From Acidobacteriota bacterium (GTDB taxonomy: Bacteria > Acidobacteriota > Terriglobia > Terriglobales > Acidobacteriaceae), in contig JABCZL010000004.1 of NCBI GenBank assembly GCA_013289685.1, forward strand, positions 124,001-188,000: DNA of 64,000 nucleotides, given 5' to 3'. The notes beneath the pieces were generated by a model. The model saw only the letters and a program-made list of their open reading frames with translations, had not been told where the DNA came from and ran no database searches. A program made the position numbers and the translations under genes. This document shows, piece by piece, positions 1,058 through 38,288 of this stretch (positions within the stretch are counted from its first letter, which is position 1; each line of letters opens with the position of its first letter).

Positions 1058-1098
1058 CGTGGGCGAGACGCCCACGGGACAGCCGGCGAGTCGCCGGC
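1058..1098. terminator. Two tandem short-loop hairpins between convergent genes
   Basis: Bases 1058-1076 form a perfect 8-bp stem with a 3-base loop (CGTGGGCG aga CGCCCACG) and bases 1082-1098 a perfect 7-bp stem with a 3-base loop (GCCGGCG agt CGCCGGC). They lie between the ends of the GH13 gene and the convergent glycoside hydrolase, so they could end transcription both ways. There is no clear U-tract; they may instead be REP-like elements. Confidence 0.5.
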
Positions 1099-1102
1099 GC
1101 TA

Positions 1103-4100
1103 CTAGAAGCCGTACTTGGCTACGATCTTCTTTTCTTTTTTTCCAATCACGACAATTGCGGCGTGTTCCGCGGGCAATGTGAACGCAATCGGCACGCCGG
1201 TGGACTGGTCGTGCAGGCTGATATTGGTGTCGTTCGCAGAGTCTGAAACAAGGACGTAGAGCACGGAGTCCGCCAGGACGGTGGGAAATATCAGCACCCC
1301 GGGCGGCAGAGGCGTTTGCTGGCTGAACATCGGCGTGATGTTCAGCCTGGTTGCGACATAGGCATAGAGTTCGGATGCCCCGTGCAGGTCCTCGGCGAGT
1401 TCGACCGGGTAGGATGTCCAGAAGATCCGGCCTTTGCCGCGAGAGAGTTCTTTGAAGTTCGATCCATCGTCGAAGCGCAGGGAATCCAGCCAGTTTTGTT
1501 GGGGCTGACCAAAAGCCAGGGCTAGCGAACGGTCCGCGATGCGCACTGTGGCGTTGTGATAGGTCAGGGGTTCGACGTGCGCTGCGAGTCCAAGTTCGGC
1601 GGCTCGATGGACGATCTGCCAGTGCTCGTCGCGATCGACTGGACCCGAGACCAGGAGGTTGCCGCCGGCGTCCACATAATTCAGCAGAGCCCGCCATGCG
1701 GTTTCGGTCAACGCTTGCGGGGAGGGCAGAATGGCGAGCTTGGGTGAGCCGAGTTTCTCGATCTGATTTTCCGCGATCACATAAGCGGGCAGGTGGGCGT
1801 CATAAGCGAGGGCACGAACCGCGTTCTGTTGGGCTGCCACTTGGAAATCGGCGAGGACGGAGAACTGTGCGGCCTGCGATGTGACGATTGCGATGGAAGG
1901 CAGCTGCGGGTCACGAAGGTGCTCGTGCAACGACGGGGCGAATTCGGCGAAGGCGCGCAACAGCGTGGCCTCCGGCTTCTCGGTGTAGTCGGTCCGGACG
2001 GCGCCGATCGGGGTCTCGTTGCTCTCCGTCATAGCGGAATTTGTGTTCCAGAGCCATTCGATGGCGCCGGAACCTTGAATGAACGACGCGGCAATTTTTC
2101 GTTCGAGAAGAGCGGCCTCGCTCTCCGGCGTGCGGCGGGCGATCTCGTCGATGTTTAATTCGCGCTGCAGTCCTGTTTCCTGAATCAGCATCGCTTTACC
2201 GGGCTGCTTGGCTGCGAGCGAATCCCACAGGATGTGGTCATTGAGCCACCAGGAATGATTGGTGGTCAAGTCGACGGACTGGCCCCAGAAAGCGGGTGAG
2301 AGACGATCTTGAATACCGCCTTCATCCTGGCCAACGGTTACGAGTTGTTGAGAGCCCGTGGACCGGATCGTGTCGCGCATGGTGCTTGCCCAGTGGGCGA
2401 ATGATTCCTGAGCGAACAGAAAATAGTCATGCAGGCGCAACGAGTTCGTTCCGGTGTACATGCCGCGCGGGGAGAACTCGTCTTCGCGCGGTAGAGAGAT
2501 CATTCCCGCAACGGAGTCGGGAGGAGCATTCCATAGCGCGGCGAGTTTTGCGCGATTGGGATACCGTTGGCTCAGCCAGTTGTTCCAGGCCGCGAGCTCG
2601 ATGGCATCGCCGTTAGGGCGCGTCTTCCACAGATGCTGAGAAAAACTCGGCTCGTTGATGAGATCCCACGCGAGGAAGGGCACGTCGCGGAAGCGCGCGA
2701 CAACAGACGAAATCAGAGTCTGCTGACGGCGGACGGCCTCAGGGTCGAGGAAGGCGTTAACGCCTCCGAGAACGTCGGGGAGGAAGGCAAAGAAATTGAA
2801 CTGCACCGGCAGGCCGTACTTGCGGGCAGTCATTAAGTAAGCTTCGAGCGTGCGCAGAGTGCGTTCGTAAGGTTGGCCGTTTTCGTCGCAGAATTTGTCC
2901 CAGCCGGTCCACCATCCGGTGCGGATCATGTTGAGCCCGGCATCGTGAATCTGGCCGAGATCCTGGTTCCAGACATACACGTTGGGATGCTCGAAGAAGA
3001 GGCGCTGCACTTCGCTCGACATATACGTGGTACCGACGATGGCGAGAGGATGGCCATCGAGTTCGAAGTAATCGTGATTGACGCCGAGATGCGGGCCGGA
3101 GCGGAGGAAGGATTCGTCGCGGATCCAGAAGGCGGAATGATAGATGGCGCGAATCCGTGTTCCTTCCACCAGCTGCGCATTGATGATGTAGAGGCCCTTG
3201 CCTGACGGCGCAGGCATCACGACGGGATCGTTGGATGGAAGCGCAGCAGTGACGGTGGAGCGATTCGAAGGCTGGGCTTCGGGGAAGGAAGTAATCTTCA
3301 GGGAGACGGGAGCCTTGGGTGGTGCTGCCGCATGCCATTGCACTCGCAGTTCGACGGACTCGCCTTGCAGGTAGAGCGGCAACGCTGGGCGGACGGTGAA
3401 CTCCTCGGCGCCCTGCAATGCCCGCTCCGCAAGGGATTGCAGGAGCGTGGCGTTATCGAAGAACTCGCGCGAAAGTTCCGCATTGACGAAAATCCAGCGT
3501 CCGCCGTCGAAACCGTTTCGGTAGTGATCGACCTGGAGGACCGGCGCGGATAATTTGCGGCCCTGCTTGACGCCCCAGGCGATTGTGTCGAGGCGGGCGT
3601 CGATGGAGCCGGCGGCGCCGCCGCGCTGGTAAAGATCGACCGCGCTCAGACGAATCACTGGGCTGAAAGCGCGCTTCCATGCGAACGCGGGAAGCTGCCA
3701 GGGCAGTTCGGGATTGGGCTGGAACTGCAGACCGTCGGAGCCGGGGGTTTCCTGGTACTGGTCGATCATGAGCGGGCGAATGAAACGGACGCTGTAATCG
3801 CGCAGATGCCAGCCGCCGGAATCGCGGTAGGCGGCGCGAGTGAAGGGCATTCCACCGAGCACCAGAAGATTGCCTCCGCGGTCGAGAAACTGCTTGATCG
3901 CCGGCCAAGCTTCCTCAGGAAAGGACGAGCCGTAGGGGAGAACCAAGAGGCGGGTTGACGGTGTGGCCAGAGCGTCGCGAAGGTGGTTTGCGTCGGTCTG
4001 CTCTGCCCCCGGCGGCATTGCGGCCAGTTGCTCCGGGAACGGGGCGGCGGAGTCGGCTGCCGGAAATCCGGGTTCGCTGAACACGACCACGGTGGATGTG

Positions 4101-4177
4101 CCGGCTTGGGCAAAGAGTGCGGATTGGCAGACTAGAAAAGAGAAGGCGGCGACAGCGAAGAGCACAGGTTCGCGCAT
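1103..4177 (-). CDS. Secreted clan GH-A glycoside hydrolase (beta-galactosidase-like), 1024 aa
   Basis: An N-terminal signal peptide (about residues 1-23) suggests export. Residues about 360-680 form a TIM-barrel-type hydrolase: the motif WDLINEPSF gives a candidate acid/base Glu at about 509 and LIQETGL a candidate nucleophile Glu at about 667, as in clan GH-A families such as GH5 and GH42. Before it (about 27-260) and after it (about 740-900) lie Rossmann-like segments of the glutamine-amidotransferase/trimerisation type (LLVLGG, NLLVSGP) seen in GH42-like enzymes. The start is ATG with no strong ribosome site. It is divergent from the sugar permease, which fits a saccharide-use locus. Family number and substrate are uncertain. 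Confidence 0.75.
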   Translation of the reverse strand: MREPVLFAVAAFSFLVCQSALFAQAGTSTVVVFSEPGFPAADSAAPFPEQLAAMPPGAEQTDANHLRDALATPSTRLLVLPYGSSFPEEAWPAIKQFLDRGGNLLVLGGMPFTRAAYRDSGGWHLRDYSVRFIRPLMIDQYQETPGSDGLQFQPNPELPWQLPAFAWKRAFSPVIRLSAVDLYQRGGAAGSIDARLDTIAWGVKQGRKLSAPVLQVDHYRNGFDGGRWIFVNAELSREFFDNATLLQSLAERALQGAEEFTVRPALPLYLQGESVELRVQWHAAAPPKAPVSLKITSFPEAQPSNRSTVTAALPSNDPVVMPAPSGKGLYIINAQLVEGTRIRAIYHSAFWIRDESFLRSGPHLGVNHDYFELDGHPLAIVGTTYMSSEVQRLFFEHPNVYVWNQDLGQIHDAGLNMIRTGWWTGWDKFCDENGQPYERTLRTLEAYLMTARKYGLPVQFNFFAFLPDVLGGVNAFLDPEAVRRQQTLISSVVARFRDVPFLAWDLINEPSFSQHLWKTRPNGDAIELAAWNNWLSQRYPNRAKLAALWNAPPDSVAGMISLPREDEFSPRGMYTGTNSLRLHDYFLFAQESFAHWASTMRDTIRSTGSQQLVTVGQDEGGIQDRLSPAFWGQSVDLTTNHSWWLNDHILWDSLAAKQPGKAMLIQETGLQRELNIDEIARRTPESEAALLERKIAASFIQGSGAIEWLWNTNSAMTESNETPIGAVRTDYTEKPEATLLRAFAEFAPSLHEHLRDPQLPSIAIVTSQAAQFSVLADFQVAAQQNAVRALAYDAHLPAYVIAENQIEKLGSPKLAILPSPQALTETAWRALLNYVDAGGNLLVSGPVDRDEHWQIVHRAAELGLAAHVEPLTYHNATVRIADRSLALAFGQPQQNWLDSLRFDDGSNFKELSRGKGRIFWTSYPVELAEDLHGASELYAYVATRLNITPMFSQQTPLPPGVLIFPTVLADSVLYVLVSDSANDTNISLHDQSTGVPIAFTLPAEHAAIVVIGKKEKKIVAKYGF

Positions 4178-4251
4178 GAGTGTGGCCTGATGAGGAGAAT
4201 TCGACAGGCGGAGACGATTGCAGTCTCCGGTATGGGGCTTGGATTGTCAAG

Positions 4252-4269
4252 CTAGAGAAACGATTTTCT
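4252..4269. promoter_or_regulatory. Possible LacI-family operator
   Basis: The stretch AGAGAAACGATTTTCTAG is an imperfect palindrome centred on CG, the usual shape of LacI-family operators. It lies between the divergent glycoside hydrolase and sugar permease, and a LacI regulator is encoded 1.4 kb away. Arms match only partly, so this is a weak call. Confidence 0.25.
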
Positions 4270-4410
4270 AGAGTATCAATTCGATATCGAGTTAAGAAAA
4301 ATGCGTAAAAGCAAGCTCTGGCGATGCTATGATGGCCGCGTTCTTCGATTTGTGCAGCTGATTCGCGCAATTTGATTTGCGCAAAATTTGGAAGGGTGGA
4401 TACAGCACTC

Positions 4411-5715
4411 ATGGCAATCGCAGCCCCCAACACTTCTACTACGACCACGGCGCCGGGGGCGGGGCAGAGCTACGGCGCTCCGCTGGCGACAGTGACAACG
4501 CTATTCTTCATGTGGGGATTTCTTACCTGCCTGAATGACATTCTGGTTCCACATCTGAAATCGATTTTCGACCTGAATTACCGGCAGTCCCAGCTGATTC
4601 AGCTCGCATTTTTTGGCGCATATGCCGTCTTTTCCATCCCGTCGGCGAAGGTTATTGACTGGATCGGCTATCAACGGTCCATGGTGGTCGGCCTTCTCAC
4701 CATGGGTGTCGGTGCGTTCCTGTTCGTGCCCGCGGCCAGCGCTGCTTCGTACCGGTTGTTCTTGGGTGCACTCATCGTTTTAGCAGCTGGGATTACCTGC
4801 CTGCAGGTCGCAGCTAATCCGTACGTTTCCGTGCTGGGGAAGCCAGAGACCGCATCGAGCCGGCTGAATTTGACTCAGGCGTTTAATTCCCTCGGAACGT
4901 TCCTGGCGCCGTTTTTCGGCGGCCTGCTGATTCTGAGCGCCGCCCCTAAGACGATGGGTGACATACGAGCGATGGCGCCAGACGTCCTCCAGGCTTACCG
5001 CCTGCACGAAGCTGCGACGGTCAAGACGCCGTATGTCGGTCTTGGAATTGCTCTAGTCGTGCTGGCGGCTGCGATCGGCAGTTTCAAGTTGCCAAAGATC
5101 GAACATGCGCAGCATAAAGTCGGGGAGAAAGTGAACGATTCGATCTGGAAGCATCCAAGTCTAATCTTCGGTGCCATCGCGATCTTTGTGTATGTCGGTG
5201 CCGAGGTCTCCATCGGTAGCTTCCTGGTGAACTACTTCAGCCAACCCGATATCGGGGGATTGACGGAAAAAGCTGCCGCCAACCTCGTCGCCTTCTATTG
5301 GGGAGGCGCGATGGTAGGCCGTTTTATTGGCTCCGGACTCCTGCAAGAGATGAAAACCGGACAATTGCTCGGCATTTGCGCGGTGAGCGCCGCTGCCCTC
5401 GTCGGAATTTCTATGCTGGCTACGGGACACCTTGCGATGTACAGCATCATCCTGGTTGGATTCTTTAATTCAATCATGTTCCCCAGCATCTTTACTCTGG
5501 GTGTGGCCGAGCTCGGCCCGCTCACCGGCGACGGTTCGGGATTCATGATCATGGCGATCGTTGGCGGAGCAATCATTCCGTATGCGCAAGGCGCGATTGC
5601 CGATCGGATCGGCATTCATCACGCGTTCTTCCTGCCCGTCGTGTGTTACCTGTATATCCTCTTCTTTGCTTTGAGCGGATCGAAGCCGAATAGCCAACGC
5701 TATGCAAAAGCGTAA
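4411..5715 (+). CDS. Sugar:proton symporter, FucP/GluP type MFS permease
   Basis: The 434-aa protein is an inner-membrane major facilitator of the FHS (fucose-galactose-glucose) family. Family marks include LFFMWGFLTCLNDILVPHLK near the N-terminus, the AANPYVSVLG segment and RLNLTQAFNSLGTF, with about 12 hydrophobic segments. The ATG at 4411 is preferred over an upstream in-frame TTG at 4372, because a GGTGGA-like ribosome site precedes it and the family N-terminus starts there. It probably imports a hexose or fucose released by the neighbouring glycoside hydrolases; the sugar cannot be told from the sequence. The LacI regulator downstream is the likely controller. Confidence 0.85.
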   Translation: MAIAAPNTSTTTTAPGAGQSYGAPLATVTTLFFMWGFLTCLNDILVPHLKSIFDLNYRQSQLIQLAFFGAYAVFSIPSAKVIDWIGYQRSMVVGLLTMGVGAFLFVPAASAASYRLFLGALIVLAAGITCLQVAANPYVSVLGKPETASSRLNLTQAFNSLGTFLAPFFGGLLILSAAPKTMGDIRAMAPDVLQAYRLHEAATVKTPYVGLGIALVVLAAAIGSFKLPKIEHAQHKVGEKVNDSIWKHPSLIFGAIAIFVYVGAEVSIGSFLVNYFSQPDIGGLTEKAAANLVAFYWGGAMVGRFIGSGLLQEMKTGQLLGICAVSAAALVGISMLATGHLAMYSIILVGFFNSIMFPSIFTLGVAELGPLTGDGSGFMIMAIVGGAIIPYAQGAIADRIGIHHAFFLPVVCYLYILFFALSGSKPNSQRYAKA

Positions 5716-5720
5716 CCGGT

Positions 5721-5741
5721 GCGAAGAGCAGGATCGGCTCT
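5721..5741 (+). terminator. Possible weak terminator hairpin after the FucP-type permease gene
   Basis: AAGAGC and GCTCTT are separated by about 7 bases just after the permease stop. The stem is short and no U-run follows, so support is limited. Confidence 0.25.
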
Positions 5742-5858
5742 TAGCTTCGCTCGGAATGGACAGCTTGTGTATGTGGAATCGCTGACTGGGTACTGGGATT
5801 TGTTAGGATATTTGGCCCGGAGTTTGCGACGTCACTAATTGAGACGACTTAAAAGATC

Positions 5859-6902
5859 ATGGGGCAAATTAAGAAGCCTGGCCAAAAACCAGAGGTCATT
5901 ACCCTCAAAGCCGTCGCCCAGCATATTGGACTGACTCCCGGCACGGTCTCGGCAGTTCTCAACGATTCACCGTCGGCTCGATCCATTCCGCAGGAGACCA
6001 AGAACAGGATCCATGCGGCGGCCAAGGAACTCAACTACCGGCCCAATTTTTTTGCGCGCACGTTGCGCAATAAGCGTACCTATACCATCGGAGTGATTGC
6101 GGAAGAGATTGGCGACTCCTACAGTTCGCCCATCATCAGCGGCATTGAGCAGTACTTGAGGAAGCGCGAGTATTTCTTTCTGACGGTGGTGCACCGGCAC
6201 GATCCGGTGTTGCTGACTCGATATTCGCAATTGTTGTCTGAGCGCGGAGTCGAGGGCATCATCACCGTGGATACGACCGTACAGGAGGCGCCCGCGCTGC
6301 CGACGGTTGCCATCGCCGGCCACAAGAAGCTGAAGGGGGTTACCAACATTACTCTGGATCACGTACGGGCGGCGGTTTTGGCTCTGAACCACTTCAAGGA
6401 TCTATCGCACGAACGGGTTGCCTTCATGAAAGGGAATCCTTTGAGCTCGGATGCGAAGGACCGCTGGGACGCGATCTGCCAGGTGGCTGGGGAGATTGGG
6501 ATGAAGATCGATCCCGAGTTGACGGTGCAGATTGACACCGACGATCCGACGCCGATGTTGGGTTATCCCTTCGCCAAGCAACTGCTGGCCGGCAAGAAAC
6601 CGTTTACCGCGCTTTTTGCCTATAACGACATTTCTGCGATCGGAGCGATTCGAGCCATACAGGAGCAAGGACTGCGGGTTCCGCAGGATATTTCGGTGAT
6701 GGGCTTCGATGATATTCCGGGCGCGGCGTTTTACACTCCGAGTCTGACCACGGTGCAACAGCCGTTGAATCGCATGGGAGAGGTGGCGGCCCAGGTCCTG
6801 CTGGAACGGATTGAGGGGAAGAAAGAATATCCCACAGACATCGCGATTGAGCCTGAGTTGGTCGTGCGAGAATCGACGGCGAAGGCTTCGGGGGCCTCTT
6901 AG
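5859..6902 (+). CDS. LacI-family transcriptional regulator
   Basis: A 347-aa regulator. Residues about 14-60 are the LacI helix-turn-helix and hinge (TLKAVAQHIGLTPGTVSAVL, then RPNFFARTLR), followed by a periplasmic-binding-protein-like effector domain with the usual GVIAEEIGDSYSSPII, FAYNDISAIGAIRA and VMGFDDIPGAAFYTPSLTTV. It should bind a sugar or sugar metabolite and repress or activate the nearby permeases and hydrolases; that link comes from position only. It is followed 45 bp later by an MFS gene, probably in the same transcript. Confidence 0.9.
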   Translation: MGQIKKPGQKPEVITLKAVAQHIGLTPGTVSAVLNDSPSARSIPQETKNRIHAAAKELNYRPNFFARTLRNKRTYTIGVIAEEIGDSYSSPIISGIEQYLRKREYFFLTVVHRHDPVLLTRYSQLLSERGVEGIITVDTTVQEAPALPTVAIAGHKKLKGVTNITLDHVRAAVLALNHFKDLSHERVAFMKGNPLSSDAKDRWDAICQVAGEIGMKIDPELTVQIDTDDPTPMLGYPFAKQLLAGKKPFTALFAYNDISAIGAIRAIQEQGLRVPQDISVMGFDDIPGAAFYTPSLTTVQQPLNRMGEVAAQVLLERIEGKKEYPTDIAIEPELVVRESTAKASGAS

Positions 6903-21066: not shown

Positions 21067-23814
21067 ATGTCGCCCTTCGATAAGTCCACTCGCCGAGAGT
21101 TTTTGGCGATCACTTCCTCTGCAGCATTGGGTGCAGCCGTGCCCTTGGCCGGCGCTCAAGAGGACGCAGCGGTCTCAGATCCTCCTTCGGTTCCGGTTTC
21201 TGACGAGATTCCTTATTCATCGGAGGAGCTTTTCGACCGCGGCCCCCAGCGCACGTTCAGCGGAGAAACCGCCACTCAAGTCGCAATGCCGTTGGGAGGG
21301 ATTGGAGCCGGTTGCATTTGTCTGAATGGCTACGGCGGGTTGCAGGATTTTTCTATCTGGAATCGTCCGTCGACAACCGCGCTACCCGAGCGCTACTCTT
21401 CGTCCCAGGCGGCTTTCGCAATCCTCCATATTAAGGGCGCATCTCCGGTCACGAAGTTGGTCGAGGGGCCGTTCCCCGTTCTCAAGATTTTCGATCAGGG
21501 GCTCCAGGGAGAAGGCTATTTTCGTGGCGGGTTCGAAGGCTTCCCGCGCTTTCAAAAGTGCGTCTTCCAGGGAGAGTATCCTTTCGGAGAAGCTACGATC
21601 AGCAATCCATCGTTTCCATTGCAGGTCTCACTCACTGCCTGGAATCCTTTTATCCCGCTCGATGACAAAAATTCGGGCATCCCCTGCGCCATCCTCGAGT
21701 ACACGCTGCATAACACTTCGTCCCGAACCGTGGAATACGAATTCTCCTATCATCTTTCTCACTTGGCGCCCGGATGCGGTGAGGATCGATCGGCAAGCCG
21801 CAATACCGTGATTGCAGAGCGGGGCGTGTTTCTGCACAGCGTGGAAAAGCCCAATGCCGAAGCTTATGGCAGCGCCTGCCTGATCGCTATCGGCAACCAG
21901 CCGCGTATCAAGGGAATGTGGCTGCGCAGCCCCGGATGGGAGTTCGACTCTCTGTCTGCACTCTGGCGCGAAGTTTCCACGGGGACGTTTACTGCCAACG
22001 AGGGATCGAACGACATCGATACTAGGGGGCGCAATGGCGGCTCGATTCTGTTTGCGGGGGCACTGGCTCCAGGGTTATCTCGAACCTACCCGATCCTGAT
22101 CGCGTGGCATTTTCCAAATTGCTATTTGCAAGTTGGCGGCGCTGCGCCTGCTGAGGCGCAAGGCGCTGACGGATGTCATTCCTTTCCTGAAGGGACGCCG
22201 CCGCGGTGGCGTCCCTACTACGCTTCGATTTGGAACGACGCCCGCGAAGTAGCTCTTTATGTCGATGAACATTACGCGTCATTACGAGCGCGGACGCTGG
22301 CATTTAAGGAAGCGCTGTTTTCCTCCACGCTGCCGGCGCATGTGCTGGATGCAGTCTCCGCAAACCTGGCCATCCTCAAGTCCCCCACCGTGCTGCGTCT
22401 GGAGAATGGTGACCTTTGGGGCTGGGAAGGTTGCTTTCCCGACGCTGGGTGCTGCCATGGTTCGTGTACGCACGTGTGGAACTATGCCCAGGCGTTTCCT
22501 CACCTTTACCCGCAACTGGAGCGGACTCTACGCGAACTGGAGTTGGGCCGCTCCATGGATGAAAACGGTCACGTCACTTTCCGCTCCGCACTTCCCGAGG
22601 GCCCGGTTAAGCACGACTTCCACGCTGCGTCGGATGGGCAGCTGGGCGGAATCATGAAAGTGTTTCGCGATTGGCAAATTTCCGGAGACACGGACTGGCT
22701 CCGGAAGATGTATCCGCTGGCCAAACGCAGCCTCGACTACTGCATTCGCACGTGGGACCCGGATCACCAGGGAGGCCTGTTTGAGCCTCATCACAATACC
22801 TATGACATTGAGTTCTGGGGACCAGACGGCATGTGCACCAGCATTTACCTGGGCGCGCTCTCGGCACTAGCCGAGATGGCCAAAGCGATTGGTCAAACTG
22901 GGGATGCCACGTTTTACGACGATCTGGCCCATCGTTGTGCACGCTTCATGGAAGAGCAGCTGTTCAACGGCGAGTACTTTCAGCAGAAGGTGCAATACCT
23001 CGGACTGCGCAACACGTCGTTTGCGTCTATGGTGGCCCAGGTCGACGAACATAGCAGCGAAATGCAGAGGCTTCTGAAGCGCGAAGGCCCCAAGTATCAA
23101 TATGGAAACGGATGCCTCTCGGATGGGGTGATTGGCGCGTGGATGGCCCGCATGTACGGAATCGAGACCCCGCTGGCCCGCGAGCATGTGCGCAAGACGC
23201 TGCAAGCAATCTTCCAGCACAATTTCAAGACTGACTTGAGCCAGCATGCCAATGCGCAACGTCCCGGATATGCCATGGGCCACGAGCCTGGCTTGCTGTT
23301 GTGCTCCTGGCCGCGGGGTGGCAAACCCACGTTGCCTTTTGTTTACTCCGACGAAGTCTGGACCGGCATTGAGTACCAAGTAGCCTCGCACCTCATCGCG
23401 GAGGGTTTCGTCCGGGAGGGGCTAACCATAGTTAAAGGCCTGCGCAGCCGCTACGACGGGCGGAGTCGTAATCCGTGGAACGAATATGAGTGCGGCAACT
23501 ATTACGCTCGTGCCATGGCCAGCTATGCATTGCTGGGTGCGCTGGCCGGGTTCCGTTATTCCGCTGTCGAGCGGACACTCTGGTTTAGTCCGCAGCTCAG
23601 TCTTCGGCCGTTCAAAACATTTTTCTCCACCGCTTCGGGATTTGGGACTATCGAACTCGAGAAGCGATCGGTGCACGTTCAATTGCTGGAAGGAGCGCTT
23701 CCGTTAGAGAAGCTAGTGCTCACCGATGGGGCGCAAACCCGGACCTTCGAGTGGAATACCACATTCAAGCCCGGCGTTCCCGCGATCAAGAATCTCGGTA
23801 GTGGTGCAGTTTGA
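21067..23814 (+). CDS. Tat-exported GH116 beta-glucosidase/glucosylceramidase-like enzyme
   Basis: ATG 21067 follows a GGGAGG site and opens a Tat-type signal (KSTRREFLAITSSAALG). The protein (915 aa) has the N-terminal beta-sandwich (MPLGGIGAGCICLNGYGGLQ is a family mark) and the C-terminal (alpha/alpha)6 barrel of GH116. Catalytic residues fit: nucleophile Glu582 in NTYDIEFWG and acid/base Asp686 in CLSDGVIGAW. It should release glucose from beta-glucosides. The last five residues (GSGAV) and the stop come from the terminal repeat of an inserted transposon; the pre-insertion sequence would have stopped right after Leu (AAG AAT CTC TGA). The enzyme is therefore essentially intact. Confidence 0.9.
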   Translation: MSPFDKSTRREFLAITSSAALGAAVPLAGAQEDAAVSDPPSVPVSDEIPYSSEELFDRGPQRTFSGETATQVAMPLGGIGAGCICLNGYGGLQDFSIWNRPSTTALPERYSSSQAAFAILHIKGASPVTKLVEGPFPVLKIFDQGLQGEGYFRGGFEGFPRFQKCVFQGEYPFGEATISNPSFPLQVSLTAWNPFIPLDDKNSGIPCAILEYTLHNTSSRTVEYEFSYHLSHLAPGCGEDRSASRNTVIAERGVFLHSVEKPNAEAYGSACLIAIGNQPRIKGMWLRSPGWEFDSLSALWREVSTGTFTANEGSNDIDTRGRNGGSILFAGALAPGLSRTYPILIAWHFPNCYLQVGGAAPAEAQGADGCHSFPEGTPPRWRPYYASIWNDAREVALYVDEHYASLRARTLAFKEALFSSTLPAHVLDAVSANLAILKSPTVLRLENGDLWGWEGCFPDAGCCHGSCTHVWNYAQAFPHLYPQLERTLRELELGRSMDENGHVTFRSALPEGPVKHDFHAASDGQLGGIMKVFRDWQISGDTDWLRKMYPLAKRSLDYCIRTWDPDHQGGLFEPHHNTYDIEFWGPDGMCTSIYLGALSALAEMAKAIGQTGDATFYDDLAHRCARFMEEQLFNGEYFQQKVQYLGLRNTSFASMVAQVDEHSSEMQRLLKREGPKYQYGNGCLSDGVIGAWMARMYGIETPLAREHVRKTLQAIFQHNFKTDLSQHANAQRPGYAMGHEPGLLLCSWPRGGKPTLPFVYSDEVWTGIEYQVASHLIAEGFVREGLTIVKGLRSRYDGRSRNPWNEYECGNYYARAMASYALLGALAGFRYSAVERTLWFSPQLSLRPFKTFFSTASGFGTIELEKRSVHVQLLEGALPLEKLVLTDGAQTRTFEWNTTFKPGVPAIKNLGSGAV

Positions 23815-23816
23815 AA
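23797..23816 (+). repeat. Left terminal inverted repeat, outer element
   Basis: Twenty bases, identical to the complement of 28219-28238. It supplies the last five codons and stop of the GH116 gene. Confidence 0.92.
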
Positions 23817-23819
23817 TCC

Positions 23820-23835
23820 GGTACTGGGTCAGTTT
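23820..23835 (+). repeat. Left terminal inverted repeat, inner element
   Basis: GGTACTGGGTCAGTTT; complement found at 27034-27049. It also resembles the outer element's end (GGTA, then TGG, then CAGTTT). Confidence 0.9.
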
Positions 23836-23856
23836 CAATTTCCACAGGGGTGACGT

Positions 23857-24867
23857 ATGATTAGCCCCCGCAAGCCGCCGATCTCTCTCCCCGCGCCAAA
23901 ACCTAGGCGGTTGCCATCGGTTAAATGCATGACGATCACGGTAGGATTCATTTGTTCCAATGGCATCGTGTTAGGCGCTGACAGCCAAGAGAGTTTCGAG
24001 GGAAGCACCCTGAAACGCTCCGTTTCAAAGTTAACCGCCTTCCCTCCGTTAGAAAGCGTTTCTGATGAAGGCCCAGACCGCCGGGCAGTTTTCACTGGCT
24101 CTGGCGATTCGCAACTCATCGACAAACTCATTGAAGAAATGTCGATAGAGGTGGCTTCAGCTGGGCCCTCTATCGAGGAAATGGCAGCCGCAATCGAGAA
24201 GCGAACAAAGCAAATATACCGCGAATATCGCAATTGTTATCACGCTGGCTACATGCCGTCAGCGGAGATTACATACGGTTTGTGGTGTGGCAACAGGTGT
24301 GCATTATTTTTCGCGCAAGGTCCGATTGTGAAAGAGATCGGAACTCTATTTCATCCCAAGGTCAAAAAGGGTCTCAAGCCCCTGCCACCCTTCCGCATCG
24401 GGTACAAAGCATCTGGAATGGGAAATGAAATCACTGACTACATCAATACCAGAGTCGGTATGCCCGCGATGAATGTGAGCGATGGCATTGTGTTAGCCCT
24501 GTACATGCTTGAACAGGCGGTGGCGCATGCTAGCGGTTGTGGTGGCGATATTCGCATAATATGGCTGGCGGAAGATGGTACGGCTGGCATGGTAGATACT
24601 GGGGCTTACACGTCTGCTCTTTTAAAGGGATTGGATAGAGAATTAAGTCGGCTTCTTTTTTCGACAGCCAACTCCACGTATCCGAATTCTAAAGTGGAAC
24701 GCGAATGGGACAATGCTAAGAAGATTCTTCTCCGGTTGCGAGAAGAATACAAAAATGGCGTCGAAAAGACTCAGAAAGACAAAGAACTGCTTTCAAACTT
24801 GCTGCAAGATTGGTTGGACGATCCCGAAGCTGCCCGCCAAAAATACCTCAAGAAATCTAGCGGCTGA
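23857..24867 (+). CDS. Proteasome/HslV-like Ntn hydrolase carried by the inner transposon
   Basis: A 336-aa protein (312 aa if translation starts at ATG 23929). Around residue 25 it reads MTITVGFICSNGIVLGADS. Taking the Thr after this Met as residue 1, Asp falls at 17 and Lys at 33, the three catalytic positions of 20S beta subunits and HslV. Removal of Met, or cleavage of a 25-aa propeptide, would expose Thr1. The body (about 200 aa) is the right size for the fold, followed by a helical, charged C-terminal tail of about 80 aa not found in HslV. AGGGGTG precedes ATG 23857. It is nearer to the Anbu/HslV side than to true 20S subunits by motif only. Cargo of an IS is an unusual place for such a gene. 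Confidence 0.75.
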   Translation: MISPRKPPISLPAPKPRRLPSVKCMTITVGFICSNGIVLGADSQESFEGSTLKRSVSKLTAFPPLESVSDEGPDRRAVFTGSGDSQLIDKLIEEMSIEVASAGPSIEEMAAAIEKRTKQIYREYRNCYHAGYMPSAEITYGLWCGNRCALFFAQGPIVKEIGTLFHPKVKKGLKPLPPFRIGYKASGMGNEITDYINTRVGMPAMNVSDGIVLALYMLEQAVAHASGCGGDIRIIWLAEDGTAGMVDTGAYTSALLKGLDRELSRLLFSTANSTYPNSKVEREWDNAKKILLRLREEYKNGVEKTQKDKELLSNLLQDWLDDPEAARQKYLKKSSG

Positions 24868-25741
24868 GTGCTTTTGTAACCAATTCAGACTCGATCTTCG
24901 ACGCTCTGACGGTGGGCTTCGGAAGCAGCGCGCATAACTCTTCGACTGTCCAAACGTGATCGGTTAAACCAGCTTCCATTGCAGGAGTGCAGCGCAATGT
25001 CTGATGCACGCGGACGAAGTTGTAATGCATATAATGCAGCGCAACCATGTGACGATGATTATCCACTTTCTTGCTGTGACCATTCGTGAGCCGCGTAAAG
25101 CGGCGCATCTGCATTCTCATCGTTAAATTCTGGCGCTCTACAAAACTAGTGCTCACATGCTTAGGGTCAGGATCGCCGCTCACGACTTTCATATCGCAGC
25201 CAATGCACTTCGCCGGAGAATAGCGTCGCGTCTCTTCGTCTGACGGAGCGCCGTAAATCTTTTGCAGCATCGCATAGTCAATATCGGCTCCGAAGGCGTT
25301 TTCTATTGCGTCCAAGTAGGCGCGATGTCCGTCAGTCGTGATCTGCACGCGATTCTTGATTCGACTGGCGCAATCTTCCATAAACTCGCCCGCCCATCCG
25401 CCGTCACGACCGCCGACCAAATAGGACATGACCAGCTTTGTATCCGCGTCGATTCCTACCCAAGTCCAAACATCGCCCCAGCCCTCTTGTTTCTTTGCTG
25501 CGCTAACGTTCTTCGCTTTCGCTCCCACGAATGACCAGATTTCATCACACTGCAAGCGGCGCACCTTGAGGCCGCGCACATTACGATTATGGTAGGCGGC
25601 GCACGCGCAACCGAGATCGGCCAGCAGTTTAACGACTGTATTCTTCGCCGCTCCGGTCATACGGACTGTGGCGCGAATCGAACATCCCTCAAGTAGGCAA
25701 TTAACCACTCTGGCGCGGGTCTCAGGATCAATACGATTCAT
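24857..25741 (-). CDS. IS1-family DDE transposase
   Basis: A 294-aa transposase. The N-terminus (about 1-55) is a helix-turn-helix that reads RATVRMTGAAKNTVVKLL, and the catalytic part has CDEIWSFVG, TWVGIDADT (Asp98), ITTDGHR (Asp137) and STSFVERQNLTMRM (Glu202), the usual IS1 DDE pattern with the HSTSFVER-like block. It is uninterrupted, so probably active. Its 3' end overlaps that of the proteasome-like gene by 11 bp tail to tail, so the pair forms one compact unit. It is the only transposase found and the likely motor of the inner element, perhaps acting on the other two in trans. Confidence 0.9.
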   Translation of the reverse strand: MNRIDPETRARVVNCLLEGCSIRATVRMTGAAKNTVVKLLADLGCACAAYHNRNVRGLKVRRLQCDEIWSFVGAKAKNVSAAKKQEGWGDVWTWVGIDADTKLVMSYLVGGRDGGWAGEFMEDCASRIKNRVQITTDGHRAYLDAIENAFGADIDYAMLQKIYGAPSDEETRRYSPAKCIGCDMKVVSGDPDPKHVSTSFVERQNLTMRMQMRRFTRLTNGHSKKVDNHRHMVALHYMHYNFVRVHQTLRCTPAMEAGLTDHVWTVEELCALLPKPTVRASKIESELVTKALSR

Positions 25742-25748
25742 ACTGACT

Positions 25749-25777
25749 CTTATACTATAGCCGCTTTAGGATGTCAA
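25749..25777 (-). promoter_or_regulatory. Strong sigma70-like promoter of the transposase, apparently leaderless
   Basis: On the minus strand TTGACA (25777-25772), a 17-bp spacer and TATAAG (25754-25749) form a near-consensus promoter. Transcription would begin about 25742, one base before the ATG at 25741, so the message should have no leader. Confidence 0.65.
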
Positions 25778-25964
25778 TAGCTAAAATGACCAGTTCGGGC
25801 TCGAATAGTCGCTACTCAATGTCTGCAACTTTCCCTTTCGTAACCCCATCTATTGGTAGTAGTTGCAAGTGACTACCAAGGCACTTGACAATTAGAGGTA
25901 CAATTGGCTAGTTCCAAAGTCCAATCCTTCCCCGCTCGATACTTTGGCCGATAGGAAACCCATC

Positions 25965-26420
25965 ATGCCTACCGAGACCGTCCAGAGCGCACCAGCCGAA
26001 ACTCGTGATCTCCGCAAAGTTCGCAATTGTGTTGGATGCGGGAGACCGCTAATTGTGGAGCCCGTTCTAACCTGTAGCAAATGCGGCCATCAGTTGAGGT
26101 TGCGTTGCTTTGCCTACCAGGCCGAACGCGAGCGGTACATCGCAGAATGTATCGATCTCGATATTCTGGCCGAGGGCAAGACGCGCCGTGAAGCAATTGG
26201 CGGTCTCCAAGAAGCCCTGTACGGATATTTCAATGCGGTTATTGACGGACAAGATACCGATGGGCTGATCCCACGGCCAGCTCCGCTGTCGCATCGTCTG
26301 CATTACCATTTTGAATCCCTCAAGGATAGAATTCGTGGCATGTTCGACGATAATCATCCGCGCAGCATTATTGCCTGTCGTTATGAAGTGCAAGAGGGCC
26401 ACCTACAGCATTGCCAATGA
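25965..26420 (+). CDS. HicB-like antitoxin with N-terminal zinc ribbon
   Basis: A 151-aa protein from ATG 25965 (AGGA site upstream; the in-frame TTG at 25944 is less likely). Residues about 20-50 hold two CxxC pairs (CVGCG and CSKCG), a zinc ribbon. Residues about 50-105 match the HicB partial RNase-H fold: ERYIAECIDLDILAEGKTRR then EAIGGLQEAL. HicB usually ends in a helix-turn-helix or ribbon-helix-helix DNA-binding domain; none is clear here, and the zinc ribbon may replace it. Its stop directly abuts the ATG of the HicA-like gene, as in toxin-antitoxin operons. Confidence 0.6.
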   Translation: MPTETVQSAPAETRDLRKVRNCVGCGRPLIVEPVLTCSKCGHQLRLRCFAYQAERERYIAECIDLDILAEGKTRREAIGGLQEALYGYFNAVIDGQDTDGLIPRPAPLSHRLHYHFESLKDRIRGMFDDNHPRSIIACRYEVQEGHLQHCQ

Positions 26421-26720
26421 ATGGGCAGAAAGTTCCCAGTTCTAAAGCCCAAGGACGTTGTTGCCAACCTCGAAGGTCTTGGCTTCAAGTTCAAGCGGCA
26501 GGACGGCTCTCATGCACAATACGAGAGATTGGCAGACGCGACTAAAAAACGAGCTGTTGTGACCGTCGATATGGCCATGAGTAGCGGATTCTCCAAGGAC
26601 TTGACGAAGAGCATGATTCGGCAGTCGTTGTTTGATAAGGAAGAATTCTATTCTGGGACTCCTAAGACGCAGAGTTTACCGAAACAACTTGATGCGAAGG
26701 CCGGGAAGTCGAGTGCCTAG
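26421..26720 (+). CDS. HicA-like mRNA interferase toxin
   Basis: A 99-aa protein with the small dsRBD-like fold of HicA: an opening KDVVANLEGLGFKFKRQDGS, then HAQYER with the catalytic-type His, VVTVDM, and FSKDLTKSMIRQSLFDKEEF. HicA toxins cut mRNA and are held by HicB. The order here is antitoxin then toxin. The toxin ATG follows the HicB stop without a gap. Carriage inside the inner transposon suggests addiction or cargo maintenance, which is inference. Confidence 0.7.
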   Translation: MGRKFPVLKPKDVVANLEGLGFKFKRQDGSHAQYERLADATKKRAVVTVDMAMSSGFSKDLTKSMIRQSLFDKEEFYSGTPKTQSLPKQLDAKAGKSSA

Positions 26721-26983
26721 CTTTTCTTCCATCGCGCCTTAGCAGCCTTTGCTGCGACTCTGCGGCGCTCGTCTTTCGTCATGGTCTTTAACCGTCGCTT
26801 TCCGCCGACCTGACCACCCTTGCGGCCTATTGCAGCCATGTACGCGGATAGATCAGGGGGAATCGCCGTGGGTGGTGCTGGTGGGCCTTGCGGTGGCTCT
26901 GGCGCATCCCCGGTAGATTGATCGACGATCCATTTGGCAAGCTGGTTCGGATCACGCGGACGTTTGCCCTTGCCGATAGTCAC
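26717..26983 (-). CDS. Small KGG-type basic protein, 88 aa
   Basis: Starts at GTG 26983. After a Pro-rich middle it carries IGRKGGQVGGKRRLKTMT followed by KDERRRVAAKAAKARW, a small basic motif widespread in soil bacteria and usually unannotated. A relative is encoded at 38133. Basic, Ala-rich helices suggest nucleic-acid binding, which is a guess. It overlaps the HicA stop by 4 bp tail to tail and is the last gene before the right end of the inner transposon. Confidence 0.6.
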   Translation of the reverse strand: MTIGKGKRPRDPNQLAKWIVDQSTGDAPEPPQGPPAPPTAIPPDLSAYMAAIGRKGGQVGGKRRLKTMTKDERRRVAAKAAKARWKKS

Positions 26984-27033
26984 GCCAACATCATGCCATA
27001 AGCAGGGATGCTAAAGCGAGGCTGTGAATATTC

Positions 27034-27049
27034 AAACTGACCCAGTACC
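27034..27049 (-). repeat. Right terminal inverted repeat, inner element
   Basis: AAACTGACCCAGTACC, the exact complement of 23820-23835, followed directly by the second TGAAATCC copy. Confidence 0.9.
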
Positions 27050-27099
27050 TGAAATCCACAGGGGTAGCGCCGGAATCCGACCTGTGGGAAACTACGGGT

Positions 27100-27282
27100 A
27101 TGGCTAATAAAGAAAGACTTCTGCGGGTTTCCCGCGATCCGAAGCTACCCGGCGAGTGTATTGCATGTGGGCATCAATTCACTGAGCCCAACATGCTCCA
27201 GAAATTCAGAGAGCACAATTGCAAAGAGGATGCCAGCCAAGCCGCTGCGCGGATCGTGAAAGAAGCTACCGAAGGTCACTGA
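27100..27282 (+). CDS. Small zinc-finger-like protein, 60 aa
   Basis: A cargo gene of the outer element. It has CIACG (CxxC) followed 14 residues on by FREHNC, giving a C-C-H-C zinc-binding pattern. The family is not one I can name. Small CxxC...H proteins are common in Acidobacteria genomes. Similar layout is seen in the 64-aa protein at 34493 in the third mobile element. Confidence 0.55.
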   Translation: MANKERLLRVSRDPKLPGECIACGHQFTEPNMLQKFREHNCKEDASQAAARIVKEATEGH

Positions 27283-27293
27283 AGCGGAGGGCG

Positions 27294-27620
27294 TTGGAGA
27301 TTCATTCCGCGCGGCGGTACGCGGACTCCAAGGCCACATTTTACAATTTCAACGTATACGGTGTCGGTTTGGTATACGAAGTTGGAGGAGTGTACGGTTT
27401 GGCCAGACCGATTTTCCCTGGGTCGAACCAATACACGATTCTATATGTGGGGCAATCCGGCAATCTGCGGGAACGACTTCAGAGCCACCTGAACGATCCA
27501 CCGACTGCCGGAATCACCCACTTCTTCGTAGAACGCATCGACAACTTGGCGGCTAGAACAACGCGAGAGAGACAGTTAATCGCAGAGTTCCAGCCCGTCG
27601 GCAACACGCTCCTGAAGTGA
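27294..27620 (+). CDS. GIY-YIG domain nuclease, 108 aa
   Basis: The core reads GGVYGLARP, YTILYVGQSGNLRERLQSHL, then a Glu-containing segment with TTRERQLIAEFQPVGN, which is the GIY-YIG fold in short form (GVY and YVG in place of GIY and YIG). TTG at 27294 is chosen because GGAGG lies just before it, right after the upstream stop; the ORF stays open to 27219. GIY-YIG nucleases occur in repair enzymes, restriction enzymes and homing elements. Here it is transposon cargo. Confidence 0.65.
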   Translation: MEIHSARRYADSKATFYNFNVYGVGLVYEVGGVYGLARPIFPGSNQYTILYVGQSGNLRERLQSHLNDPPTAGITHFFVERIDNLAARTTRERQLIAEFQPVGNTLLK

Positions 27621-27869
27621 CGTGCAGGTTCCATCGAACCTGCCTGTCGTTCGCTCGAAAAAGAACCGTTTATCTCCAACGTGGAGCACAGAATATCGTG
27701 CTCCCGTTGCGAGGAAGACGGTTTCGTTCGTTAAAGGATCAACGTATTCGAACTCTTTGATCTTTGCGGGCGCATGAAAAAACTCCAGGGCGGTTCCCCA
27801 TGCGTGTCGAATCCACTCGCGGACCATGGACGATGCTGCTCGATTTTCGGTTCCGATAGCTGTGTCCAT
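27576..27869 (-). CDS. Hypothetical protein, 97 aa
   Basis: Starts at ATG 27869 with TAGGAG upstream and runs opposite to the GIY-YIG gene, overlapping its end by 45 bp. The C-terminal half is beta-rich (NETVFLATGARYSVLHVGDK then RFFFERTTG), which looks like a small barrel. I do not recognise it. Codon pattern and a ribosome site support it as a gene. Confidence 0.5.
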   Translation of the reverse strand: MDTAIGTENRAASSMVREWIRHAWGTALEFFHAPAKIKEFEYVDPLTNETVFLATGARYSVLHVGDKRFFFERTTGRFDGTCTSLQERVADGLELCD

Positions 27870-28023
27870 ACCCTCAAGTCTCCTACGGCTGATCAGTCTA
27901 GTGTCATCCCGTGCTTCCTGTAAAGTCTGATCCCTTTTGCTCTAGTTCGTCGCCTGCTCTTGGTCCGTGTCCTTCAGCGTGTTACATAAGTAACGTAGCA
28001 TACTCGTGTAACATGTCAAGAGC

Positions 28024-28218
28024 TTGGATACCAAAGAACCAACTTGCTCCCTGCATCTGCGGAAGTTTCCGAAAGACGTTCGGAAGCGGTTGAACAAAAT
28101 CGCGCAGGATCTGGACGAGGACGTTCAAGAATTTGTTCCGCGTTGGCTGCAAGAACGGCTAGATCAGGAAGAAGCGAAGGCGCAAGGCAAGCCTATCGCC
28201 AAACGCAAGGGGCCTTAG
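28024..28218 (+). CDS. Possible ribbon-helix-helix-like small protein, 64 aa
   Basis: The segment LRKFPKDVRKRLNKIAQDLD then EDVQEFVPRWLQERL reads like the RHH/Arc fold found in antitoxins. The only start in frame is TTG 28024; an ATG ten bases upstream is out of frame. The stop TAG directly abuts the right terminal repeat of the outer element. Start and function are uncertain. Confidence 0.45.
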   Translation: MDTKEPTCSLHLRKFPKDVRKRLNKIAQDLDEDVQEFVPRWLQERLDQEEAKAQGKPIAKRKGP

Positions 28219-28238
28219 TTTCAAACTGCACCACTACC
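28219..28238 (-). repeat. Right terminal inverted repeat, outer element
   Basis: TTTCAAACTGCACCACTACC, exact complement of 23797-23816, followed directly by the second AGAATCTC copy. Confidence 0.92.
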
Positions 28239-28257
28239 AGAATCTCTGAAATCGAGT

Positions 28258-38132: not shown

Positions 38133-38288
38133 ATGTCCGACAAGAAAGAGAAGAATCCTAATGCCGTAGCCTTGGGTCGCCTGGGTGCAAAAGCGCGACA
38201 GGAGAAGCTGACCCCGGAACAGCGGCGAAAAATCGCCCAGAATGCGATTCGTGCCCGTTGGGCAAAGACAAACAAGAAGAAGACGTAA
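38133..38288 (+). CDS. Small KGG-like basic protein, 51 aa
   Basis: Divergent from the recombination-like operon and 55 bp from the palindrome. It reads ALGRLGAKARQEKLTPEQRR followed by KIAQNAIRARW, the same type of motif as the C-terminal half of the 88-aa protein at 26717. It is too short for most gene finders. Very basic, so nucleic-acid binding is possible. Unknown function. Confidence 0.6.
   Translation: MSDKKEKNPNAVALGRLGAKARQEKLTPEQRRKIAQNAIRARWAKTNKKKT

Follow-up and report, generated by a model that had tools for sequence, protein, structure and literature searches.

The window analysed here, 64,000 nt of an Acidobacteriaceae genome (contig JABCZL010000004.1, positions 124,001 to 188,000), carries two nested IS1-type insertions at the 3′ end of a GH116 gene. 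We consider it highly probable that a cassette from a lineage with GTG at end positions 8-10 arrived first and an autonomous element from a lineage with GGT at these positions second, and that transposases of this class read the differing bases through their helix-turn-helix. In the proposed course of events, a transposase-less cassette with GTG ends and a zinc-ribbon gene would have inserted at the GH116 stop codon, either moved in trans by a transposase of its own lineage or losing its own transposase later, and an autonomous element with GGT ends and the KGG form of a small gene would then have landed within it, 23 bp from its left tip. End positions 8-10 would be bound by residue 23 in helix 2 together with residues 33 and 34, with which the recognition helix begins. 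The small gene at the far end would belong to the system as a regular component, probably as a DNA-binding helper or a regulator, and neither the outer cassette nor the GTG-ended miniature inverted-repeat transposable elements (MITEs) of this genome should be mobilised by the inner transposase. The nested pair is real and its insertion order is clear. As such it is nothing unusual; what makes it interesting is the class to which it belongs, with its conserved unnamed second gene and its apparent residue-to-base rule.

Read directly from the window sequence, the ends and 8-bp duplications of both elements match the preliminary description letter for letter (Table 1), and in a chance control, in which the sequences of 40 relatives' loci were reversed without complementing, the end-plus-duplication search returned 0/40 at the score used. 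That the outer element came first and the inner one second, 23 bp from the outer tip, follows from these ends and duplications. In support, a Terriglobia metagenome-assembled genome (MAG) has the same left end, unbroken over the same stretch, with a zinc-ribbon gene at the start and a transposase (L099; the contig stops before the right end). The left end said to be common to both elements over about 35 bp is so only with a one-base gap before TCCACAGGGGT. The outer element measures 4442 bp as present; subtracting the inner element and one TGAAATCC copy leaves 1204 bp.

The GH116 identity was confirmed by Pfam (DUF608, 1.1e-50; Glyco_hydr_116N, 7.7e-41), and the open reading frame (ORF) now runs into the outer tip, ending at the TGA within GTTTGA. 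Seven further genomes among the 45 searched in the genus hold GH116 homologues; five of these align to the 3′ end, and there the gene runs uninterrupted to its own stop (L174, L175, L176 (ATCAAGAACATCTGAATCGA), L177 and L178), while the alignments of L179 and L180 stop before the gene end. Because homology on the right flank of the window reaches only about 10 bases beyond the junction, the predicted empty site is seen mainly at the GH116 gene end and little on the right-flank side.

The claim of two IS1-type transposons held insofar as both are IS1-type insertions with complete ends and 8-bp duplications, but the outer one has no transposase. Its four small ORFs include none according to the ORF list, Pfam and NCBIfam, and a genome search returned the inner transposase as the only full-length IS1-type one, plus one 43-residue fragment with a stop; a full transposon was thus ruled out for the outer element, and only the inner one is autonomous. 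Paired ends, a target duplication and cargo without a transposase are the features of a mobile insertion cassette. By its end type (GTG, not GGT, at positions 8-10) and its zinc-ribbon first gene, the outer element is identified as such a cassette from a sister lineage. The preliminary description had named homologous loci in relatives with the cargo genes but without terminal repeats as evidence against its reading. Since homologues of the GIY-YIG-like gene (29-54% identity) in three other family genomes lack such ends in their 1.5-kb flanks, this gene does exist outside such ends too, but at other loci; none of its homologues was seen within similar elements.

The zinc-ribbon gene occurs in 17 of 398 family genomes, including this one. 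Outside this genome's own locus, 15 of 17 zinc-ribbon loci have a GTG-type end (TGC at positions 9-11) on the upstream side of the gene, 12 within 100 bp and three at about 250-300 bp; upstream of the gene at L222 and L236, no TGC-type end was found. Some members of the lineage carry a transposase. L099/L220, whose first gene is 79% identical to that of the outer element, has one, as does L101, a 6694-bp element with perfect outer-type ends and the duplication GTATTTTC. Other members (L221, 709 bp; L223, 524 bp; L229, 687 bp) are small bounded cassettes that have exact duplications and could not accommodate a transposase, and the outer element is thus one more of them.

Alternatively, the outer element may once have been autonomous, its transposase having been deleted by the inner insertion or afterwards. 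L099, L101 and L241, which combine the same end and first gene with a transposase, are consistent with this history, but the inner insertion removed nothing detectable, as its two 8-bp copies bracket a continuous match to the L099 left end. Moreover, the exact duplications of L221, L223 and L229 suggest that jumping without an own transposase is usual in this lineage. Former autonomy is therefore doubtful, and we prefer an origin as a cassette.

Several other arrangements of IS1-type ends were observed. At L229/L246 (G528:C104), two zinc-ribbon cassettes lie head to tail, with GGAAAAGA before, between and after the first. The transposase and zinc-ribbon gene face each other in GTGCC-end elements (L237, L238, L244) and point in one direction in GTGCA-end elements where both are readable. 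A 542-bp cassette at L203 (G055:C242, locus positions 1435-1976) has both ends, the duplication AAGAATAA and little besides the small end gene. In the genome under study (G000), a 1541-bp unit without transposase (C9:225561-227101; L010, L022) has IS1-type ends (GGTAGTGGGCCAGTTT and a near copy), an imperfect duplication with 7 bases shared and a phosphatidylserine decarboxylase gene (Pfam, 1.8e-50). The same genome holds MITE-like copies of about 200 bp at C9:67449, C6:339984, C8:149916, C5:166568, C5:281278 and C15:105454 (L007-L009, L014, L016), at least five with the outer-type end; more diverged copies were also seen elsewhere in the genus, G652 and G719 having the most.

We compared these insertions with the best 80 loci with a related transposase in the genome collection, where 427 of 590 candidate stretches were confirmed among the matches listed. 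Paired ends and 8-bp duplications were present at 62 of the 80; the duplication is exact in 61 and has a mismatch in one, and the two 18-bp ends are identical in 38. The 62 elements have a median size of 3174 bp (range 1085-6694), with a median of 2355 bp outside the transposase. Among the matches listed, hosts were Acidobacteria, Alphaproteobacteria, Planctomycetes, Verrucomicrobia, Nitrospira, Chloroflexi and others, mostly MAGs, and a transposase match was found in 70 of 396 genomes of the phylum.

Nearly all examined elements have a small gene close to the end opposite the transposase. Its profile matches 69 of 75 elements (both window elements and the phosphatidylserine decarboxylase cassette included) and gives a single hit in 579,580 bases of flanking DNA, a comparison that is partly circular as the model was trained largely on these elements; the six without a match are L101, L105, L085, L086, the outer element and the phosphatidylserine decarboxylase cassette. 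The gene is also present in 27 of 28 viral-contig elements outside the training set, where no circularity arises. The 396 phylum genomes hold 42 full-length copies; 37 have a transposase match no more than 2.7 kb away, and 36 of these sit upstream of it on the same strand. These results argue against the small gene being ordinary cargo outside the transposition system, an explanation that we regard as unlikely even though five of the 42 copies have no transposase match within 6 kb and a few elements lack the gene (L105, L086). None of the 59 aligned members matched Pfam or NCBIfam, and the profile matched no sequence in the PDB. The modelled protein has three helices (predicted local distance difference test, pLDDT, 83.6, but predicted template modelling score 0.38), and no structural match in the PDB fell below E 7.8. 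The zinc-ribbon and KGG forms have only a short stretch in common, with faint scores of 10-16 bits; common descent is likely, though weakly shown. Elsewhere in the window, positions 38139-38270 (G000:C4:162139-162270) match the KGG part of the small gene partially, over a short stretch (E 7.4e-12).

Covariation between end bases and transposase residues was evaluated in 89 elements, 68 with duplication-verified paired ends and 21 with ends taken from one side or without duplication. When 17 end positions were compared with 294 residues by mutual information, all nine top-ranked pairs linked positions 8-10 to residues 22-37 (top z 20.5, 16.0 and 14.1, scores that ignore the tree; highest permuted value 0.144 vs 0.477). 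At position 8, T goes with I33 (9/9), A with F33 (3/3), C with L, T, F or S (7/7) and G with K or R (70/70). At position 10, G goes with H34 (6/6), A with V34 (3/4) and T with N34 (62/70), and at position 9, G goes with K33 plus R23 (49/49) and T with N23 (12/15). As helices are predicted at residues 6-17, 22-29 and 33-54 in the structure model of the inner transposase, residues 33-34 would open the recognition helix.

On a tree built without transposase residues 1-60, phylogenetically independent pairs agreed in 7/7 cases for position 8 and residue 33 (p 0.016), in eight or seven of nine for position 10 and residue 34 (none opposed, median p 0.008) and in about seven of nine for C at position 9 with non-K33 (none opposed, p 0.016). 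Covariation at positions 8 and 10 thus survives phylogenetic pairing. The rules were fixed from the 89 elements and applied to held-out viral-contig elements. For 24 with duplications, two near-copies and two without a readable motif having been dropped, 21, 20 and 20 bases were right at positions 8, 9 and 10, compared with 13, 5 and 17 for the commonest base. With 15 more that have matching ends and no duplication, 35, 31 and 31 of 39 were right, compared with 24, 13 and 25; all three positions were right in 26 of the 39, a set in which L250 and L294 look like near-copies. For one further element (G073), a GTG end and a zinc-ribbon gene were predicted when only its transposase (N23 K33 H34) was known; the contig then showed both, a GTGCA end with a zinc-ribbon gene about 70 bp inside. 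Unlike most elements of cellular genomes, 15 of the 39 viral-contig elements have matching ends without a target duplication.

Some results weigh against this reading. The ends of 21 of the 89 elements are not duplication-verified pairs, and the independent pairs for T at position 9 with N23 are only suggestive (about 5/8, none opposed, median p 0.06). The position 8 rule is broken by a TCC-end subgroup (L086, L267), which has K/R33 and D34. The 89 do not include five rows whose ends are known but whose transposase was not extracted; judged by eye, L078 fits, the rules miss position 9 in L063 and L085 and position 8 in L086, and L079 is uncallable. Among the held-out elements that the rules got wrong are TCC ends paired with K33-D34, GTA ends with R33-T34 and GGC ends with K33-K34, and in 3 of 72 paired elements the two ends differ at positions 8-10. 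The transposase model has a mean pLDDT of 76.9, and the other four models go down to 40.6. Finally, the assembly has 48 contigs at 98.9% completeness, so a further transposase copy could be missing.

Could the inner transposase have moved both elements and the MITEs, the end differences at positions 9-10 being tolerated? It is the only full-length one found in the genome, both elements follow the end pattern GGTA.TGG..CAGTTT, and the 3 of 72 elements with differing ends point to some tolerance. However, all six GTG-end transposases of the 89-row set have H34, neither H34 nor G at position 10 occurs in any further row, and the inner transposase has R23 K33 N34; we judge this explanation improbable. 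Given these residues and the end code, the outer cassette and the GTG-ended MITEs are predicted not to be substrates of the inner transposase. Shared ancestry without contact as the sole cause of the covariation is hardly tenable: ends and residues are indeed common to close relatives and the z-scores ignore the tree, but the independent-pair counts, the at least three changes that the zinc-ribbon/GTG type needs on the tree without residues 1-60 (four with G073, on a 47-row tree), the advantage over the commonest base at all three held-out positions and the reported need of IS1 itself for its helix-turn-helix in end binding (a passage of PMC12428005) all argue for recognition.

The zinc-ribbon/GTG/H34 type requires at least three changes on the transposase tree whether or not the helix-turn-helix columns are included, and four once G073 is added; a single-change history was recovered in 0/200 bootstrap trees. 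Either the recognition helix, ends and small gene would move together between transposase bodies or the type would have been lost repeatedly; the change count does not distinguish gain from loss. A broader reading, which we put forward tentatively, is that of a widespread class of two-gene IS1-type cargo transposons in which the small gene may be a dedicated end-recognition partner and ends, small-gene type and recognition helix may pass between transposases as a single specificity module, the combination of zinc-ribbon gene, GTG ends and K33-H34 being seen at four separate places on the tree. If so, end choice could be reprogrammed from three residues. The mover of orphan cassettes and MITEs is normally guessed from end similarity; a three-residue rule would match orphans to movers from sequence and make IS1-type end recognition testable by a few substitutions.

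The closest known group is presumably that of the single-ORF IS1 members, the ISMhu11-type group of ISfinder, a provisional assignment; in ISfinder, some members reach about 4.6 kb. The window elements resemble this family in the IS1-type DDE transposase of the inner one (PF03400 above cut-off), in the GGT-starting terminal inverted repeats that they share with their relatives and in their 8-bp duplications, within the 8-9 bp of the family; plasmid relatives are named 'IS1 family transposase' in RefSeq. They differ in having no InsA/InsB′ frameshift pair and no N-terminal zinc finger in the matched part, the transposase being a single 294-aa ORF that matches transpos_IS1 model positions 40-169, although the two-frame arrangement describes IS1 itself and not single-ORF members. 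The class also differs in its median of 3.2 kb with cargo and its conserved second gene. Transporter insertion sequences, described for IS1595, likewise have passenger genes unrelated to an insertion sequence-like core, but their transposase family is different, and here a second conserved gene lies near the opposite end. Like mobile insertion cassettes, the outer element, L203, L221, L223 and L229 have both ends without a transposase, and the 200-bp copies are MITE-like; unlike others, these have IS1-type ends, and the cassettes often keep the small first gene. Tn7-like transposons (PMC8649781) are also bounded and carry varied defence cargo, but the machinery here is unrelated and much smaller, one transposase and one small gene. 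The principle of end recognition is already known, because the zinc finger and helix-turn-helix of IS1 are both reported necessary for end binding (PMC12428005, in a passage citing Ohta 2004). In the literature searched, which leaves most subscription papers outside its coverage, we found no specific residue-to-base rule, no report of covariation of ends with the helix-turn-helix and no mention of the name ISMhu11. For IS1 with passenger genes, the search gave papers on other subjects and papers that name IS1, IS1595 and passenger genes together; for an accessory gene in Acidobacteria, it gave unrelated work.

Table 1. Features of the nested insertions (window positions).
Feature	Positions	Strand	Basis
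Outer target duplication, left copy, AGAATCTC	23789..23796	n/a	direct sequence reading
Outer element including the inner one, without transposase	23797..28238	n/a	ends, ORFs, transposase search
Outer left end, GGTAGTGGTGCAGTTTGAAA, GTG at positions 8-10	23797..23816	+	direct sequence reading
Inner target duplication, left copy, TGAAATCC, within outer left end	23812..23819	n/a	direct sequence reading
Inner autonomous element, 3230 bp	23820..27049	n/a	direct sequence reading
Inner left end, GGTACTGGGTCAGTTT, GGT at positions 8-10, transposase side	23820..23835	+	direct sequence reading
Weakly proteasome-like gene, inner cargo; related genes in 4 other elements	23857..24867	+	TIGR03634 8.7e-05, below cut-off; cluster of 5 elements
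IS1-type transposase, 294 aa, R23 K33 N34	24857..25741	-	Pfam DDE_Tnp_IS1 30.7 bits, cut-off 24.1
Gene immediately upstream of hicA, Cys pairs; candidate antitoxin by position	25944..26420	+	no family match reaching cut-off
HicA-type toxin gene, inner cargo	26421..26720	+	PF07927 32.3 bits, cut-off 27
Conserved small basic gene, 88 aa, KGG form, near inner right end, upstream of transposase on same strand	26717..26983	-	no Pfam/NCBIfam family
Inner right end, pairs with GGTACTGGGTCAGTTT, small-gene side	27034..27049	-	direct sequence reading
Inner target duplication, right copy, TGAAATCC	27050..27057	n/a	direct sequence reading
Outer first gene, zinc-ribbon form of small end gene, 60 aa	27100..27282	+	79% identity to L099/L220 first gene
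GIY-YIG-like gene, outer cargo; start uncertain, probably near 27297	27219..27620	+	PF20815 22.3 bits, cut-off 22.4
ORF of unknown kind, outer cargo	27576..27869	-	ORF list, Pfam
Short ORF adjoining outer right end, faint BrnA-like match	28024..28218	+	NF047399 0.0051, below cut-off
Outer right end, reverse complement of GGTAGTGGTGCAGTTTGAAA, identical over 20 bp	28219..28238	-	direct sequence reading
Outer target duplication, right copy, AGAATCTC	28239..28246	n/a	direct sequence reading

The inner transposase scores 54.2 bits against NCBIfam transpos_IS1, below the cut-off of 100, and so does not pass the NCBI IS1 equivalog model. Its best structural match in the PDB is the ISCth4 transposase (6xg8; template modelling score 0.41 by query length); the predicted fold is of the DDE type, and ISCth4 is not a close relative. 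Among the matches listed, the nearest relatives come from Acidobacteriaceae MAGs: L089, at 87% over the compared columns, and L090.

The cargo of the class was scanned in 150 of 177 cargo ORFs of at least 95 aa, called by a simple longest-ORF rule, with 150 of 566 flank ORFs as the control. PADLOC matches, which signify homology only, comprised 289 models in cargo and 54 in flanks (models, not proteins). The commonest in cargo were PD-Lambda-2_B (12), RmrA (7) and capP (5), with at most two per model in flanks; the commonest Pfam families were HTH_3 (20), Peptidase_M78 (11) and P63C (8), with at most two per family in flanks. Judged by such homology, the cargo is often defence-like. In many phyla, the elements would serve as compact vehicles for toxin-antitoxin and defence-like genes, and their conserved second gene belongs to no family of the libraries searched. 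For the nine proteins of the window elements, a defence role is unsupported, PADLOC giving one faint match (the GIY-YIG protein, 9.2e-04). In L092, L093, L111, L135, L145, L148, L161 and L063, large cargo proteins begin with the KGG-like motif of the small end gene.

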